A stretch of DNA of 64,000 bases from Candidatus Heimdallarchaeota archaeon (GTDB lineage Archaea; Asgardarchaeota; Heimdallarchaeia; JABLTI01): positions 1-64,000 of the forward strand of contig JAHLVZ010000003.1 of the NCBI GenBank assembly GCA_019058165.1, in the 5' to 3' direction. Within the stretch, counting starts at the first letter, position 1; each line of letters opens with the position of its first letter. A program made the position numbers and the translations under genes. Shown one piece after another: positions 2,800 through 36,795 of the stretch. Below the pieces are notes generated by a model. It made no database searches. It was given only the letters and a program-made list of their open reading frames with translations, and was not told the DNA's origin.

Positions 2800-2941
2800 T
2801 TTTTTTCGTTCTCCTCTTGAAAGTTACCATAATCAATAAATACTATTAGTTACTACTTGAGTAGTGACCTTTAAATATGTATGCGAATATATTATATTTA
2901 AAGAATTCCTTTCGAAGGAAAGAACACGATTAGTGGTAAAA

Positions 2942-3967
2942 ATGCAAATCGATGAAAAACTAGTTGAGGGTCTCACAAGGATTGGATTACAGAAATATCA
3001 AGCACAAGTATATATTGCAAGTGTTGTTTTGGGAGATGCCAGTGCTTATCTTATCGCTAAAGAATCCGGTGTTCCAAGATCCAAAGTTTATGAGGTATTA
3101 GATGGTTTAGTTGAACTCGGTTTCATGTCCAAAGTTCCTTCAGATAAAGGAATGCTATTCAGAGCCTTACCTCCTGAGAACACTATCGATAATGCCATTT
3201 CTAATATTGTAAGTACCATTGATGGTGTGAAGAAAGAAATTAAAGTTCTTCAAGAAGATCAACTAGGCAAATCATCCGATCCACCTATTGTAATTTTTAG
3301 TAATACAAGTTCTTTACTCGAGATGATTCAAGAAGGAGAGTTCTATGAGTCTTGGATTGATAATTCATTAGAAATCGCTTTGGATCTACGTAAGATTTTA
3401 TCTAAAAAGAAGTGCGAGATACATACTATTTCCAGTGCTGCACCATTGTCATTTATTCTTGGACCTACTGATTCATACTTTATACGTGGTAGAAATGGTA
3501 CCTTATTCATGATAAAATTCTCAAATAATATAATGCAACAAATCCTTGGCATGGTTGAAAAAACCAAGTCTGAAACAAAGGAAGAATTATCCAAAGATAG
3601 TGGAGTAAGGATAATACGTGAAACCGCCATTATGAGTTTAGTAGACAAAATCAAACTAGTTATTCCTGGGTATGATTGGAAAACAGAGAAAGTGCTCTTT
3701 TGGGGTACGGCTGAAAATATTTCAGGAGCATTTGCCAGTAAAACACCCTGTGATTGTTTCATCACTGAAACCCGATTATTAATTAGTGCCGATGATGGAC
3801 GTGTCTGGGCTAGAGCGATAAAGTTCATACAAAATTTGGAATTGAAAGATAGTACTATAAAACTCACTTTTGGGAAAGTTGGGGGAACAGAAGTTCTTAC
3901 AATTAGATCTATTGCTTATGCAATCGTTATTAGTAATCTAATAAGTTTCATCCTAAAGAAGAAATAA
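2942..3967 (+). CDS. TrmB-family transcriptional regulator
   Basis: N-terminal wHTH ...LQKYQAQVYIASVVLGDASAYLIAKESGVPRSKVYEVLDGLVELGF...; ATG at 2942 preferred over the ORF-track start at 2864. Confidence 0.75.
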   Translation: MQIDEKLVEGLTRIGLQKYQAQVYIASVVLGDASAYLIAKESGVPRSKVYEVLDGLVELGFMSKVPSDKGMLFRALPPENTIDNAISNIVSTIDGVKKEIKVLQEDQLGKSSDPPIVIFSNTSSLLEMIQEGEFYESWIDNSLEIALDLRKILSKKKCEIHTISSAAPLSFILGPTDSYFIRGRNGTLFMIKFSNNIMQQILGMVEKTKSETKEELSKDSGVRIIRETAIMSLVDKIKLVIPGYDWKTEKVLFWGTAENISGAFASKTPCDCFITETRLLISADDGRVWARAIKFIQNLELKDSTIKLTFGKVGGTEVLTIRSIAYAIVISNLISFILKKK

Positions 3968-4035
3968 TTATGAGCAACAAGGGAAACTGTAAATAACTCT
4001 TAGAGAGATTATTTTTTAGTTGAAGGGTTATTACA

Positions 4036-6486
4036 ATGATTCCTAAACATTCACAAAAATTAGGCTTTCTTGTTACTCATGGAACAGATACTATGTCATG
4101 GGGATTAAGTGCTATCAGATATATGTTGAAGAATATACCATCTAATGTAGCAATTACTGGATCACAAGTTCCTTTGAGTCTTAAATTCTCTTCTTCAGAT
4201 GTGTATCCGAATGTAGAAAATTCTATCAAATTATTAACGCAATTAACTGGACCAGAAATATTCGTTGTTTTCAATAATGGTCAAGCTGCTTTCCAAGATA
4301 CCTTATGGAAATTTGATAAGTGGTCCCCGGATGCTTTTAGAGGAGAGGAACTTGCGAAAATAGCTCTTGATGAAATCATCATTCGAGGAAGATCCTATCC
4401 ATTAAATCTTAATCGAAAATTGGATAAATTATTCCTAATTAGGACAGGTGGAACGATAGAATCTGAGGAATCAGAAGGAGGTTTCCTAACTCCTACTGGT
4501 AATCTGATTACAGAATTTATTTCGGAGAAATTCAAACAGTTCTACGATGAGTTCATACCAATTTCTTTAATGGCTATTGATTCATCAGATATGATTCTTA
4601 AATCTTGGAAATCAATTGCGAGAAAAATTGCTGTAGAATGCCAAAAAGCTAATTATACAACTTTCTGTGATGATAATTTTAATCCACGAGTCCAAATCGT
4701 TTCTACATCACCCTTAATGACTGAACAAGATTACTTTGATGCTTTTGAAAAAGCTGATGGAATAATTTTGAATGCTTTTGGTAGTGGAACTATAAACACT
4801 GAAAAAGATTCAGGATTTTCACCATTACCTGCAATTGAACATGCAATAAAAAATGGCAAGATAGTAGTTATTGCTTCCCATACTCCTTTTGGCACACAAG
4901 ATTTCATATACCAAAATGCTTGGGAACCAATTAGAGTAGGAGCCATTCCTGCGGGAGATTTCAGTATAGCTCATTGCCAAATAAAGTTATCATATCTGTT
5001 AGGTCATAAAAAAGAAATCGAAAAGGTAGCGAAAAAACACAAAATACCACTAAGTAATTTTATCAAAATTGCATTTCTTTCTGGTGTTGATTTTAGGTCA
5101 TATTCTAGTAGGAAAAAATTTGAAGAATTAATAAAATATCAGATTCCCTTAAAAGATCCATTCTTTAATTTGCCATTTGAAATGGGTCTTCATAAAATCA
5201 TTGCGTTTCTCGAGAGAAAACAAACACAACAAATAACAATTCAATCAATAGAAGCTTTTGAATTAGCATTTGAAAAATACTTCAAAAACCCAAATAAGAG
5301 AAATAAATGGGCAATAATATTAAAACCAGATACAGTTGTCGGATCCAATAAATGGGGGGAACTTGTGGATGCATCTAAAAATCTCGCAACAATAACGAAT
5401 GAGCTTTTAGATTGGAATATTGTTGTTCTCGAATTATCTGAGATTAATTATCAGCATTTACTAGAGAGAATAGAACAATTATGTGATAAAGAAACATTTG
5501 GTGATTTTCTCAGATCCTTTAGGTATGTCATTGTTGAAGGTGGAAGGCAATCATTATATGATTCCGGAAGTTTTGACCAAGTGTCTAATGGCAATTTTTC
5601 CAAAAAAGATTTTCTTCATTTACTTAGGAGTATCATGTTTTCTAGAAACAAAGCTGGATCAAATCCTACACTTTTTCTGTGTTTAGGACATCAAGGATAT
5701 GCTGAAATGCTTCGAGATTATCTGGAGCAGCTAGTTAAAGACAAGAAGAAAATCGGAAAATTACTCGAGAAATATGACATAAAAGCAAAAGAACACTTTC
5801 TTGAGATAATTGAAAAGATAAACTCAGTTGGAACAAATATAATTGTTAAAAGAAGAAACCAAGAAATTGTTGCTTCGGGTTTTAAGGATCAATACTTTGC
5901 AGTGAAATTAAATGAATTACCTGAAATTGGTTTAAAGAAATTACTTGTTTACAAACCTTCAAAGAATATTGTTCCAGATGAATTACTAAAAGCATATCAG
6001 AAAATTGCTAAACTACATGTTGGTTTACTCGAGGATTTCTACGAATTAGAAACACTCGATATTGCCATGCTTCATGGTGACGAAGTGAATGAGGAAGCAA
6101 TTTTGTTTCTTAACTGGGCCTTGAGTCTTTTAGCTAATTTCTCAAGAGTACATTACAAAGTACTACTAAAAGAATCACAATTATGTGAAATTACCAATTT
6201 ACCTATTGGATTAGAAATACCCAGTTCAACTGCTTATAGTATTGAAGAAGATAAACAAGATACATTAACTGAAATAGCAGGATTTGTTGTCTATTATTAC
6301 AATCCTAATACTGGAATCGTGAAGAGAGATTATACTCTACAATTTCACCCAGAGCTATTTGAAGAAATCAGAATTCTGCAAAAAAGAGATTTTGAAAGCA
6401 AAACCCTTCTGGAATTATCTGATGGAATCCAACTCTTACTCTCATGCTTACAAGCTGGTTTCATTGAAACATCAAAGAAGTTCTAG
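4036..6486 (+). CDS. Segment-swapped L-asparaginase-like domain fused to class-I glutamine amidotransferase-like domain
   Basis: Order of motifs: THGTDTM, then TGGTIES, DSSDM and asparaginase C-domain; then LFLCLGHQ and LQFHPE of class-I GATase. In-frame TGA at 4021 fixes the N-terminus. Confidence 0.7.
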   Translation: MIPKHSQKLGFLVTHGTDTMSWGLSAIRYMLKNIPSNVAITGSQVPLSLKFSSSDVYPNVENSIKLLTQLTGPEIFVVFNNGQAAFQDTLWKFDKWSPDAFRGEELAKIALDEIIIRGRSYPLNLNRKLDKLFLIRTGGTIESEESEGGFLTPTGNLITEFISEKFKQFYDEFIPISLMAIDSSDMILKSWKSIARKIAVECQKANYTTFCDDNFNPRVQIVSTSPLMTEQDYFDAFEKADGIILNAFGSGTINTEKDSGFSPLPAIEHAIKNGKIVVIASHTPFGTQDFIYQNAWEPIRVGAIPAGDFSIAHCQIKLSYLLGHKKEIEKVAKKHKIPLSNFIKIAFLSGVDFRSYSSRKKFEELIKYQIPLKDPFFNLPFEMGLHKIIAFLERKQTQQITIQSIEAFELAFEKYFKNPNKRNKWAIILKPDTVVGSNKWGELVDASKNLATITNELLDWNIVVLELSEINYQHLLERIEQLCDKETFGDFLRSFRYVIVEGGRQSLYDSGSFDQVSNGNFSKKDFLHLLRSIMFSRNKAGSNPTLFLCLGHQGYAEMLRDYLEQLVKDKKKIGKLLEKYDIKAKEHFLEIIEKINSVGTNIIVKRRNQEIVASGFKDQYFAVKLNELPEIGLKKLLVYKPSKNIVPDELLKAYQKIAKLHVGLLEDFYELETLDIAMLHGDEVNEEAILFLNWALSLLANFSRVHYKVLLKESQLCEITNLPIGLEIPSSTAYSIEEDKQDTLTEIAGFVVYYYNPNTGIVKRDYTLQFHPELFEEIRILQKRDFESKTLLELSDGIQLLLSCLQAGFIETSKKF

Positions 6487-11920: not shown

Positions 11921-12877
11921 TTAAGATGCTTCAATGCTTCCTGTAGTAGTATCTAGATCGAAAATGTATTTTATTAATTCACCAGAATACCCAGTTGATT
12001 CGTACAAGTTTCCTCCACCAGGAAGAGTAATACTACCTGTTGTAGTTTGAGCCGTTATTCTAATTCCAAAATCAGTCTCAGCCAAGGTGTATAGAAGATC
12101 AATTGAACCTGTAGTAGTTCCAACATTAAAGGTTGCAGTATAATTATCTGCAGGAATAGCAACTTGATCTACTGTTAAATCAATTGAGCCAGTTGTTGTG
12201 TCTATTGTCCAGACTATATCATCTACAAATTTGACTTCTTGTGAAATTACATCTATACTTCCAGTAGTTGTTTCTAAACTTACTGTAGAAGTATTTAGAA
12301 ATGTGTTATCACCAAAATCAGCTGTTACTGATCCAGTGGTTACTAAGACATCAAGCATTCTAATTTCGCTTTCAGTTAGGGAATCAAAATCTAAATTGAT
12401 ACTACCAGTAGTAACTTCTAAATTGTAATCTACAATAGCATCCGGATTGATTTTTATGAATAATTTTTGATAATATGCACTTTTGTTTGCCCATTGCCAA
12501 GTAACTTCACCTGATTCAAAAGAGATAAGCACCTTACCTCCTGCAGTAGAGTCTGTAAAATTAACAGCATCTGTTATTGTGGCTTCAGATCTACCCCAGA
12601 ACTCTAATCTTGCTTCCATTAATGATGTAAGTGTATCATCGTTTTCTATCTCAATACTTCCTACAGTGTTGTCAATAGTTAATGTGAGATTAAGATTAGC
12701 TGTGGAAGCATATGTATAATTTGTTTCGCCAATTAATGTAAAAGGTCCTCCTCGAGTTACGAAAACTGCTACTACACCACCAATTATTGCTAAAACAAGC
12801 ACAATTATTATTATTAATCCAACTTGTCCATTTGTATTATTTTTCAGTTTGTTGAATTGTTTTTTCAAAATTACCAA
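11921..12877 (-). CDS. Membrane-anchored TTGSI-repeat protein (DUF4097-like beta-repeat)
   Basis: N-terminal TM; seven TTGS[IV] repeats plus one TVGSI. Confidence 0.7.
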   Translation of the reverse strand: MVILKKQFNKLKNNTNGQVGLIIIIVLVLAIIGGVVAVFVTRGGPFTLIGETNYTYASTANLNLTLTIDNTVGSIEIENDDTLTSLMEARLEFWGRSEATITDAVNFTDSTAGGKVLISFESGEVTWQWANKSAYYQKLFIKINPDAIVDYNLEVTTGSINLDFDSLTESEIRMLDVLVTTGSVTADFGDNTFLNTSTVSLETTTGSIDVISQEVKFVDDIVWTIDTTTGSIDLTVDQVAIPADNYTATFNVGTTTGSIDLLYTLAETDFGIRITAQTTTGSITLPGGGNLYESTGYSGELIKYIFDLDTTTGSIEAS

Positions 12878-33849: not shown

Positions 33850-35499
33850 GTGATCGACATGTCATACTTATTTGAAGAACTACAACAAAAAGATGGTAAA
33901 CCGAAAGATGAGGATAAAATTCTCTTTATGGGTTTACAACAAGCTGGTAAAACAGCTATAAAGGATGTTGTGTTCTTTGGTAAGAAACCGGAAGAAGTCG
34001 AAGGTTATATGGCTACAATTCATTATGAGCGTCAATTCATTGATGTGGATCAGAAGAATATAGTTGTAGATTCTGGAGGTCAAGAAAGTTATTGGAATGA
34101 AGCTGTTACACAGTTCCGTCATCTTGTTTTCTCTAATGTTAAATTGCTTTTATGGATCATTGATATGACTCATCCTGAATTTTTCGAAGAATCAGAACGA
34201 AGATTTAGTTTTACAATTCGTCAGTTCAAAAAAGAGAATCCTAAGGGAAAAATAGCAGTTCTTTGCCATAAAGTGGATATGATTCAACCAGAAGAACTTG
34301 TTACTTTACTAGATAAAGTCAAAGAATCATTTGATGATCCTAAATACGACATCCAATTTGAATCTAGTAGTATATATTATGCTGAAAGTTTGATAGAGTT
34401 AGTCTATAAACTCATGAAAGAAGCAGATATGAATATACAACGGTTTGAGTTAATTGAGGATCTCGGAAAGAAAGTCGAGGAAAGTGAAGAATTTCAAAGT
34501 TACGTAGTGGAACATCAAGAAGATCAAAGAATTCGTCAACTTATGGATTACTTAAAACCTGAACATGGTGGGACATTGCCAACTTATGGTAAATCGACTA
34601 TCCAATTGGATCTCAGTGATTATGATATTATTGAAATAGTGTTAATAGATAAGACTACTCTTTCTCCAGTTATAGGAACTTCTGCTCAATCAGCAGTACA
34701 TGTTGAAATGTCCATTGATTATATTGTTGCTTTACAAGAATTTAAAGCAAGTATTAGGGAACATAAATTCGATAATGGTTCAACTGTTAATGTCGTTACC
34801 GCTTCTAACGAAAAAATTCATGGCATGATTATCAGTATGGAGAAGAACTACTTACTAATCACTTCATTTTCTCCTATTACAGAGGATAAAACAAAGAACC
34901 TTTATGGTCTTATTAGTAAATTCTCTCAATCGCTTGATACAACAGAAAGAATTAAAGTAAAGGCTCTTAGTGAAGCCCTTCCTAAACCTAAAGAAGTTGT
35001 TGTTGCTCCAACAATTGATGCAGTAAAAGCATCTGTTGAAGTTGAACAACCAATTGTTGAGCGAGAAGGAGAAAGTTTTTTCACTTTTGTCAATAAACTG
35101 AAAGAAAAACATGATATTGAAGAAATAAAAGAAATTGAACCAGTTCCTCCAGTTCCAAAACCAGAAAAAGTTTTAGCTCCTGTTCCGGAATCTGTTCATA
35201 TAGTTGAACCAGATACAGAAGTTATATTAGAACCTGACCTTACTGCCGAAGTTGAAGAACCAGTTGAAGCTCTAGTAAATGTAGAGGAACCAAAACCTGA
35301 ACCAATTATAGAACAAGTAGTAGAAACACCTCAATCCGTGAAGAAAAAGAGTTCCAGATTCATGGAGAGAATAAAAGAAGAACGTAAAAGATATGCAATC
35401 AAACAGATCCAAATCCAAACAGCAAGTCTTGATCTATCAGAGGATGATATGAAGGATTTAGCTGAGTTTCTTAAGAAAGAGAAGAAATCTGAATCTTAA
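33850..35499 (+). CDS. RagA/Gtr1-like GTPase with C-terminal domain and Pro/Glu-rich tail
   Basis: ILFMGLQQAGKTAIKDVVF...VVDSGGQESYWNEAVTQFRHLVFSNVKLLLWIIDM...VLCHKVDMI; resembles RagA DCGGQDTF and CLVHKMDLV. GTG start; ATG at 33859 possible. Confidence 0.7.
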   Translation: MIDMSYLFEELQQKDGKPKDEDKILFMGLQQAGKTAIKDVVFFGKKPEEVEGYMATIHYERQFIDVDQKNIVVDSGGQESYWNEAVTQFRHLVFSNVKLLLWIIDMTHPEFFEESERRFSFTIRQFKKENPKGKIAVLCHKVDMIQPEELVTLLDKVKESFDDPKYDIQFESSSIYYAESLIELVYKLMKEADMNIQRFELIEDLGKKVEESEEFQSYVVEHQEDQRIRQLMDYLKPEHGGTLPTYGKSTIQLDLSDYDIIEIVLIDKTTLSPVIGTSAQSAVHVEMSIDYIVALQEFKASIREHKFDNGSTVNVVTASNEKIHGMIISMEKNYLLITSFSPITEDKTKNLYGLISKFSQSLDTTERIKVKALSEALPKPKEVVVAPTIDAVKASVEVEQPIVEREGESFFTFVNKLKEKHDIEEIKEIEPVPPVPKPEKVLAPVPESVHIVEPDTEVILEPDLTAEVEEPVEALVNVEEPKPEPIIEQVVETPQSVKKKSSRFMERIKEERKRYAIKQIQIQTASLDLSEDDMKDLAEFLKKEKKSES

Positions 35500-35535: not shown

Positions 35536-36795
35536 CTAAATTGGTCTACTTTTATCATATCGTCTGTATTCTAAATTATTATCAAGTATTACCGGAATTT
35601 CTCTTATTCCTTCAACACATTCATGAAGTGGATAAATTTCTACAGAGGTAGCACCAAATCCAGAACTAATTTTAATACCTCTTTCTAGTTGCTCTGAATT
35701 TTCTAGTGCAATTTCTAAAACAGATTTTTGTATTTGTTTTCCACAAACATCACATTTAACACCAATTTTAGTGTCAAATCTTATTTCTAATTCTTTAACA
35801 TTTTTGATTTTATGTTTTTTGAGATAGTCAGCAAGAGTTTTCTTCATCTTTGCCTTTGCTTGTCCTAAGAGCTCATCAGGTTGGAATAAACTATTAATCT
35901 GATTACTTAAATAACTGAATTTATCTTGAGCATCAGTAATCCCTGTTTTTTCTGGAAAAATAGTTGTTACAATTAAATCATCAGCAACTTCTTTCATGAG
36001 GACTGTATAGTTTCCGTAAGCAAAAATTGCTTGTTGTAATACCATTCCAGGGAAGTATGCTTTAGCAAGTTCATTTTTCAACCTTTGAAAATTAACTCCT
36101 GAAACTACCTCAGGTTCTGAATATAGTATCAATCCTTGTGAGGTTGAAAGCGCTAAGAATTCTAGGTTATAATTACCTACAATTCCTTTTAATTCAGTTG
36201 TTTTTACACCATCTCGAGGATAAACATAAGAAAGCACTTCTTGCATTGCTTCCCAAACTGTATTATCAAATATTGAAGTTCCGTAAATTTTGACATTTTC
36301 ATATTCTTCTATTTCAAAAATATCTCCAATTGATTTTACAATTGAAGTGCGTTTATTCAATGAGACAACATCGATTTTGTGAGCAAAAACATATATTCGT
36401 GCTTTTTTACTCATATCTCCTAAGCTCTTAAGCATTAAATCAAAGTAATATTTTGATCTCATTACATTGGCTGCATCTGAAACATCTACCACAAAAATCG
36501 CTGCTCTTACATCAGTAAAAGTCCTTTCCTTATATTGTTGGAAAATTTCGTTTAGATAATTAGTTTGACCACCAATATCAAAAAGATTTATTGCCCCGCC
36601 GGCCAAATTAAACAACTTTCTATTGATTCTCACTGTTGCAGGATTTAGTGCTGTTGCTTCTGGAGTAAAACCTTCAAAAACAACTTGACGTATAGATGTT
36701 TTTCCTGACTGTGATAATCCTAAAACGACCACTTTTGATTCTAATTCGCTAGTTGTAGGAGGCATAAGTTCACCATTCTTGTTTAAATTATTCAA
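35536..36795 (-). CDS. RagC/D-like GTPase with roadblock-like C-terminal region and CxxC...HxC zinc motif
   Basis: VVVLGLSQSGKTSIRQVVFEGFTPEAT...LFDIGGQTNYLNEIF...VFAHKIDVVS...IYGTSIFDNTVWEA; cf. RagC [42 protein letters not shown]. Confidence 0.7.
   Translation of the reverse strand: MNNLNKNGELMPPTTSELESKVVVLGLSQSGKTSIRQVVFEGFTPEATALNPATVRINRKLFNLAGGAINLFDIGGQTNYLNEIFQQYKERTFTDVRAAIFVVDVSDAANVMRSKYYFDLMLKSLGDMSKKARIYVFAHKIDVVSLNKRTSIVKSIGDIFEIEEYENVKIYGTSIFDNTVWEAMQEVLSYVYPRDGVKTTELKGIVGNYNLEFLALSTSQGLILYSEPEVVSGVNFQRLKNELAKAYFPGMVLQQAIFAYGNYTVLMKEVADDLIVTTIFPEKTGITDAQDKFSYLSNQINSLFQPDELLGQAKAKMKKTLADYLKKHKIKNVKELEIRFDTKIGVKCDVCGKQIQKSVLEIALENSEQLERGIKISSGFGATSVEIYPLHECVEGIREIPVILDNNLEYRRYDKSRPI

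Follow-up and report, generated by a model that had tools for sequence, protein, structure and literature searches.

In normal asparaginases, the segment that carries the TGGTI strand lies ahead of the segment that carries HGTDT. One gene in the stretch of Heimdallarchaeota DNA analysed here (the window, 64,000 nucleotides) encodes these segments in reversed order and then runs on into a half resembling class-I glutamine amidotransferases (GATases). This raises two questions. Is the order a genuine rearrangement, rather than the result of a missed start, decay or misassembly? And what could a protein with two amide-handling modules in one chain do? Judged from sequence comparisons, the N-terminal asparaginase domain is a complete circular permutation, neither a missed start nor a decaying gene, and we consider it fairly probable that the two-module protein is an amidohydrolase with two sites.

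The gene and its parts

The gene and its upstream neighbour divide as follows (all on the + strand).

2864–3967, +: TrmB-like regulator gene (PF01978, E 3e-16), 68 bp upstream of the 816-aa ORF (gap at nt 3968–4035)
4036–6486, +: whole gene, ATG start, 816 aa; asparaginase module with a circular permutation, followed by a divergent GATase module of class I
4036–4413, +: segment A, residues 1–126, second part of the asparaginase N-domain; PF00710 positions 78–178 on residues 9–110; canonical-profile positions 93–187
4414–4653, +: segment B, residues 127–206, first part of the asparaginase N-domain; PF00710 positions 1–77 on nt 4426–4656; canonical-profile positions 11–88
4654–5070, +: segment C, residues 207–345, asparaginase C-terminal domain; PF17763 on residues 218–332, and alignment
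5071–5295, +: linker, residues 346–420, conserved within the genus; overlaps the start of the GATase alignment (from residue 399)
5296–6483, +: GATase module, residues 421–816, divergent class-I by profile-profile comparison with shuffle controls; PF00117 weak in stand-alone relatives

The motifs quoted in a preliminary description of this DNA are all present. Segment A contains HGTDT (15–19, with T17 and D18), ITGSQ (40–44), K92 and DAFRG (99–103). Segment B contains TGGTI (137–141, with T140) and DSSDM (182–186), followed by a helix ahead of the junction, and segment C contains GSGT (249–252) and a Y292-Q293 pair that replaces the Y-E of normal enzymes. In the GATase module we find EGGR (501–504), CLGHQ (549–553, with the putative nucleophile Cys549), MLHGDEV (678–684) and QFHPE(L) (769–773, with His771 and Glu773). 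A family match was sought for the linker (residues 346–420) and none was found.

A missed N-terminus does not account for the order. As the preliminary description had argued, the frame of the 816-aa ORF is closed upstream by an in-frame TGA at 4021. The TrmB-like gene ends at 3967, which leaves no space for a missed TGGTI segment. Moreover, intact relatives have stop-to-stop frames of just 820–832 codons, which begin at most about 20 codons from the start. The TrmB-like regulator is the one constant neighbour: it accompanies the permuted gene in all genus members examined, and the two may be co-expressed. Elsewhere in the window, two ORFs (33850–35499 and 35536–36795) resemble, by eye, Ras/Rag-type small GTPases with long C-terminal extensions, and a 318-aa ORF (11921–12877) combines an N-terminal hydrophobic stretch with many TTGSI repeats, by eye a DUF4097-type, beta-helix-like protein.

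A permuted asparaginase N-terminal domain

Along the chain the order is [HGTDT...DAFRG] - [TGGTI...DSSDM...W] - [asparaginase C-domain] - [class-I GATase]. Pfam recovers the asparaginase N-terminal domain (PF00710) in two pieces, the best stretch placing residues 9–110 on positions 78–178 of the 193-position profile, and Asparaginase_C (PF17763) once, on residues 218–332. Both matches exceed their curated cut-offs (82.9 bits against 22.5 and 54 bits against 34.6, respectively). A whole-genome search gives the same reversed order, with PF00710 positions 77–178 at nt 4057–4365 and then positions 1–77 at 4426–4656.

All six orders of segments A, B and C were scored against a profile built from 22 Asgard asparaginase-family ORFs. 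One of these is a GatD; the other 21 are asparaginases in normal order, some of them cut off by a contig end. In its native order (A-B-C) the protein matches the profile in three disjoint stretches, at positions 93–187, 11–88 and 209–336, worth 116 bits in all. The restored order (B-A-C) gives a single continuous match to positions 14–336 at 134 bits, and the other five orders, the native one included, all give split matches. Every part of an asparaginase is thus present exactly once, and the order alone differs. One junction of the permutation lies just ahead of the HGTD strand, the other in the linker preceding the C-domain.

The first module is a domain pair of the asparaginase/GatD family with a circular permutation in its N-terminal alpha/beta domain: the strands and helices from HGTDT to DAF lead, and the part from TGGTI to SSDM comes next, running straight into the C-domain. 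Since all pieces are present once, the normal fold, with its Thr140/Thr17-Asp18/Lys92 site, could reassemble, closure of the fold being our assumption. The simplest origin would be a tandem duplication of the N-domain, after which the first copy lost its first half and the second copy its second half. The anatomy fits such a duplication-and-loss history, which we infer from it.

Predicted structures add little. AlphaFold models of the two halves have low confidence (mean pLDDT 47.5 for the asparaginase half and 39.0 for the GATase half), because the usable input sequences were close relatives and a few viral asparaginases. In a Foldseek search the model of the N-terminal half matches asparaginases, but that model is of low confidence and the superposition is poor.

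Conservation and selection within the genus

The permuted order and the open frame are intact in five independent assemblies of the genus. These are the window's own genome and four others (G057/L033, G064/L032, G058/L005 and G062/L006), and the copies are 68–92% identical. In a sixth (G061/L008) the order is the same and the gene is intact as far as the contig end. The same architecture is seen at loci L003/L033, L032/L004, L005 and L006, and in part at L008. The permuted gene is absent from G059 and G063, both incomplete genomes. Most dN/dS values lie between 0.02 and 0.13 across all modules, with a maximum of 0.27 in segment B, several of the underlying dS values being saturated; segment A is the slowest-evolving part. 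These values argue strongly for purifying selection on every module.

Could the order nevertheless be an artefact, a misassembly or a pseudogene? The isolate 12F4_9 (L034/G060) carries a decaying copy with frameshifts and in-frame stops between intact neighbours (L034 6025–8423), so the permuted gene is dispensable in that genome. Against this stand the order and open frame common to independent assemblies at the identities given above, together with the low dN/dS. An artefact is refuted for the genus as a whole, and we give it next to no probability. The preliminary description had called the segment swap a permutation rather than decay, and the single match of the restored order, its persistence across independent assemblies and the purifying selection bear this out.

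Beyond the genus, the order has no counterpart in the genomes searched. Among 232 Asgard genomes, full-length matches to the permuted profile come from this genus only, and none of the other asparaginase-family genes in these genomes matches across the permuted junctions. The normal order holds for all other full-length asparaginase-family genes of the class (60 genomes). All intact relatives of the gene are swapped, and the homolog search turned up no normal-order homologs of it. Outside Asgard archaea, the search comprised a collection-wide genome scan with exact 8-residue patterns, which found close relatives only, and searches of plasmids and viral contigs.

Relation to known asparaginases and GatD

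The protein shares with type I L-asparaginases (TIGR00519; PF00710 + PF17763) all N- and C-domain segments, each present once, and the TGGT Thr, the HGTD Thr-Asp and the Lys. It differs from them in the permuted N-domain, the missing Tyr and Glu of the loop network and the fused GATase. With GatD, the archaeal Glu-tRNA(Gln) amidotransferase subunit (NF003217/TIGR02153), it would share the asparaginase fold, and NCBIfam searches match its C-domain region. Unlike GatD, however, it has no GatD N-terminal extension, does not adjoin GatE and scores below curated cut-offs (84.1 bits on the GatD equivalog model against a cut-off of 310). In a tree, the permuted family stands apart from both GatD and type I sequences on a very long branch, whose length makes this placement uncertain. 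With scores under the equivalog cut-offs and a separate long branch, membership of either family was rejected.

The host genome has a normal GatD elsewhere, beside a GatB/GatE-like gene, so the GatD role is already filled. Short contigs of this genome carry pieces of a second GatD-like gene as well. In the genus there are two GatD-like paralogs, the second of them longer (G000 C64, C216 and C75; L054–L067).

The active site of the asparaginase half

Had the permuted half kept its catalytic-type motifs, as the preliminary description held? In part it has. T140 (TGGT), T17 and D18 (HGTD) and K92 are invariant in the five full-length members, as is Ser183; the HGTD motif becomes YGTD in the partial copy (G061/L008). 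Elsewhere in the site the claim fails. The flexible loop after TGGT has F, V or L at position 150 and no Tyr in any member, the position of the C-domain Glu from the neighbouring subunit is an invariant Gln293, and the conserved SxEA motif is altered to SIAH.

In E. coli type II asparaginase, Y25 contacts T12 and the partner subunit's E283; the Y25F variant has a greatly lowered kcat with a preserved Km, and E283 variants are about 55–63 times less efficient (PMC8460627). With the equivalents of both residues missing, classical asparaginase turnover by the permuted half is doubtful. The loss of the loop Tyr is not decisive, since this position is also variable among normal-order Asgard asparaginases.

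A divergent GATase half

The C-terminal half, described earlier as GATase-like on the strength of its motifs, falls below the PF00117 cut-off of 22.8 bits. The window protein scores 14.2 bits and two stand-alone relatives 22.6 and 19.8 (E 9.4e-5 and 6.8e-4). In a profile search of the PDB, the Cys loop falls on PabA/TrpG-type chains at E ~0.04. The two parts flanking the insertion described below were compared with 18 Asgard GATases by profile-profile alignment (hhalign). The part with the oxyanion motif and Cys loop scores 50.5 and the part with the HPE region 40.9, in the right order, against maxima of 19.3 and 20.1 for shuffled columns and 18.4 and 16.4 for an asparaginase control. The earlier reading is upheld by this comparison: the C-terminal half is, on these alignments, a very divergent class-I GATase with a predicted Cys549-His771-Glu773 triad.

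Like the class-I GATases (PF00117; TrpG/PabA, GuaA and CarA small domains), this half has the oxyanion GG, the CLGHQ nucleophile loop, HGDxV and QFHPE in order. Across seven sequences Cys549, His771, Glu773, EGGR and MLHxDEVN show no variation. In contrast to those families, the half scores below the Pfam cut-off, has no known synthase partner and carries an insertion of about 130 residues between its Cys loop and HPE motif: Cys549 and His771 are separated by 222 residues, some 130 above the expectation for a class-I GATase.

Clear relatives of the GATase half outside the genus occur in two Asgard genomes only, as stand-alone proteins (family f11; L009 and L010) of 391–393 aa that are 37–38% identical to it over its whole length. 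They keep all GATase motifs; they differ in having no asparaginase module and in lying in another neighbourhood, and their own neighbourhoods gave no clear functional clue. A weak third match, a short stop-containing fragment, comes from G015 (E 0.0045), and no relatives were found in plasmids and viral contigs. The GATase half marks a new, very divergent branch of Asgard GATases, one that escapes current family models.

What the protein may do

In our working model the protein would be a cytosolic amidohydrolase with two amide-hydrolysing sites. The substrate hydrolysed by the GATase half would be glutamine or some other gamma-glutamyl compound; the permuted half would bind an Asn-like amide and perhaps hydrolyse it slowly. 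Neither a synthetase nor an acceptor or other partner that might reveal the substrate was identified. The preliminary description had suggested an unusual amidotransferase or deamidase; given the lack of such a partner and the low confidence of both structure models, that would be a tentative reading.

A serious rival, which we hold to be possible but not probable, is that the permuted half does not catalyse at all. Its role would instead be binding or regulatory: by recognising Asn, Gln or a related amide, it would control or dock the GATase half, the sole catalyst. The changes at the loop Tyr, the C-domain Glu and the SxEA motif, the YGTD of one member and the invariant GATase triad all agree with such a division of labour, whereas the retention of T140, T17-D18 and K92 and the slow evolution of segment A speak for a working site.

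GatD provides a precedent for an asparaginase fold that can act as an ammonia donor. Together with the presence of two amide-handling modules in one chain, this lends some plausibility to a true coupled amidotransferase, in which one site would release ammonia for use at the other or for delivery to a partner protein, in the way that GatD supplies GatE. Yet the chain lacks a synthetase or acceptor-activating domain, the only constant neighbour is the TrmB-like regulator and a normal GatD, next to a GatB/GatE-like gene, is already encoded in the genome; we consider such coupling improbable. A more specific proposal is that the permuted domain and the fused GATase form a new kind of coupled enzyme for amide transfer, found in these Asgard archaea alone, with one site providing the other with ammonia or an acyl group; this seems to us slightly less probable again. 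The two-site amidohydrolase remains our preferred reading.

In the part of the open-licence literature accessible to full-text search, no naturally occurring circular permutation of a type I/II asparaginase came to light. The protein provides a natural test of how an asparaginase site withstands both a topological change and the loss of the loop Tyr/Glu network, a matter of relevance to the engineering of this family of drug enzymes.

A minor observation concerns another Asgard genome (G070). Genes for a PIG-L deacetylase, a group 1/family 4 glycosyltransferase and a BshC-domain protein lie adjacent there (L079, 5933–9679), and the trio is likely to represent a bacillithiol-type pathway.
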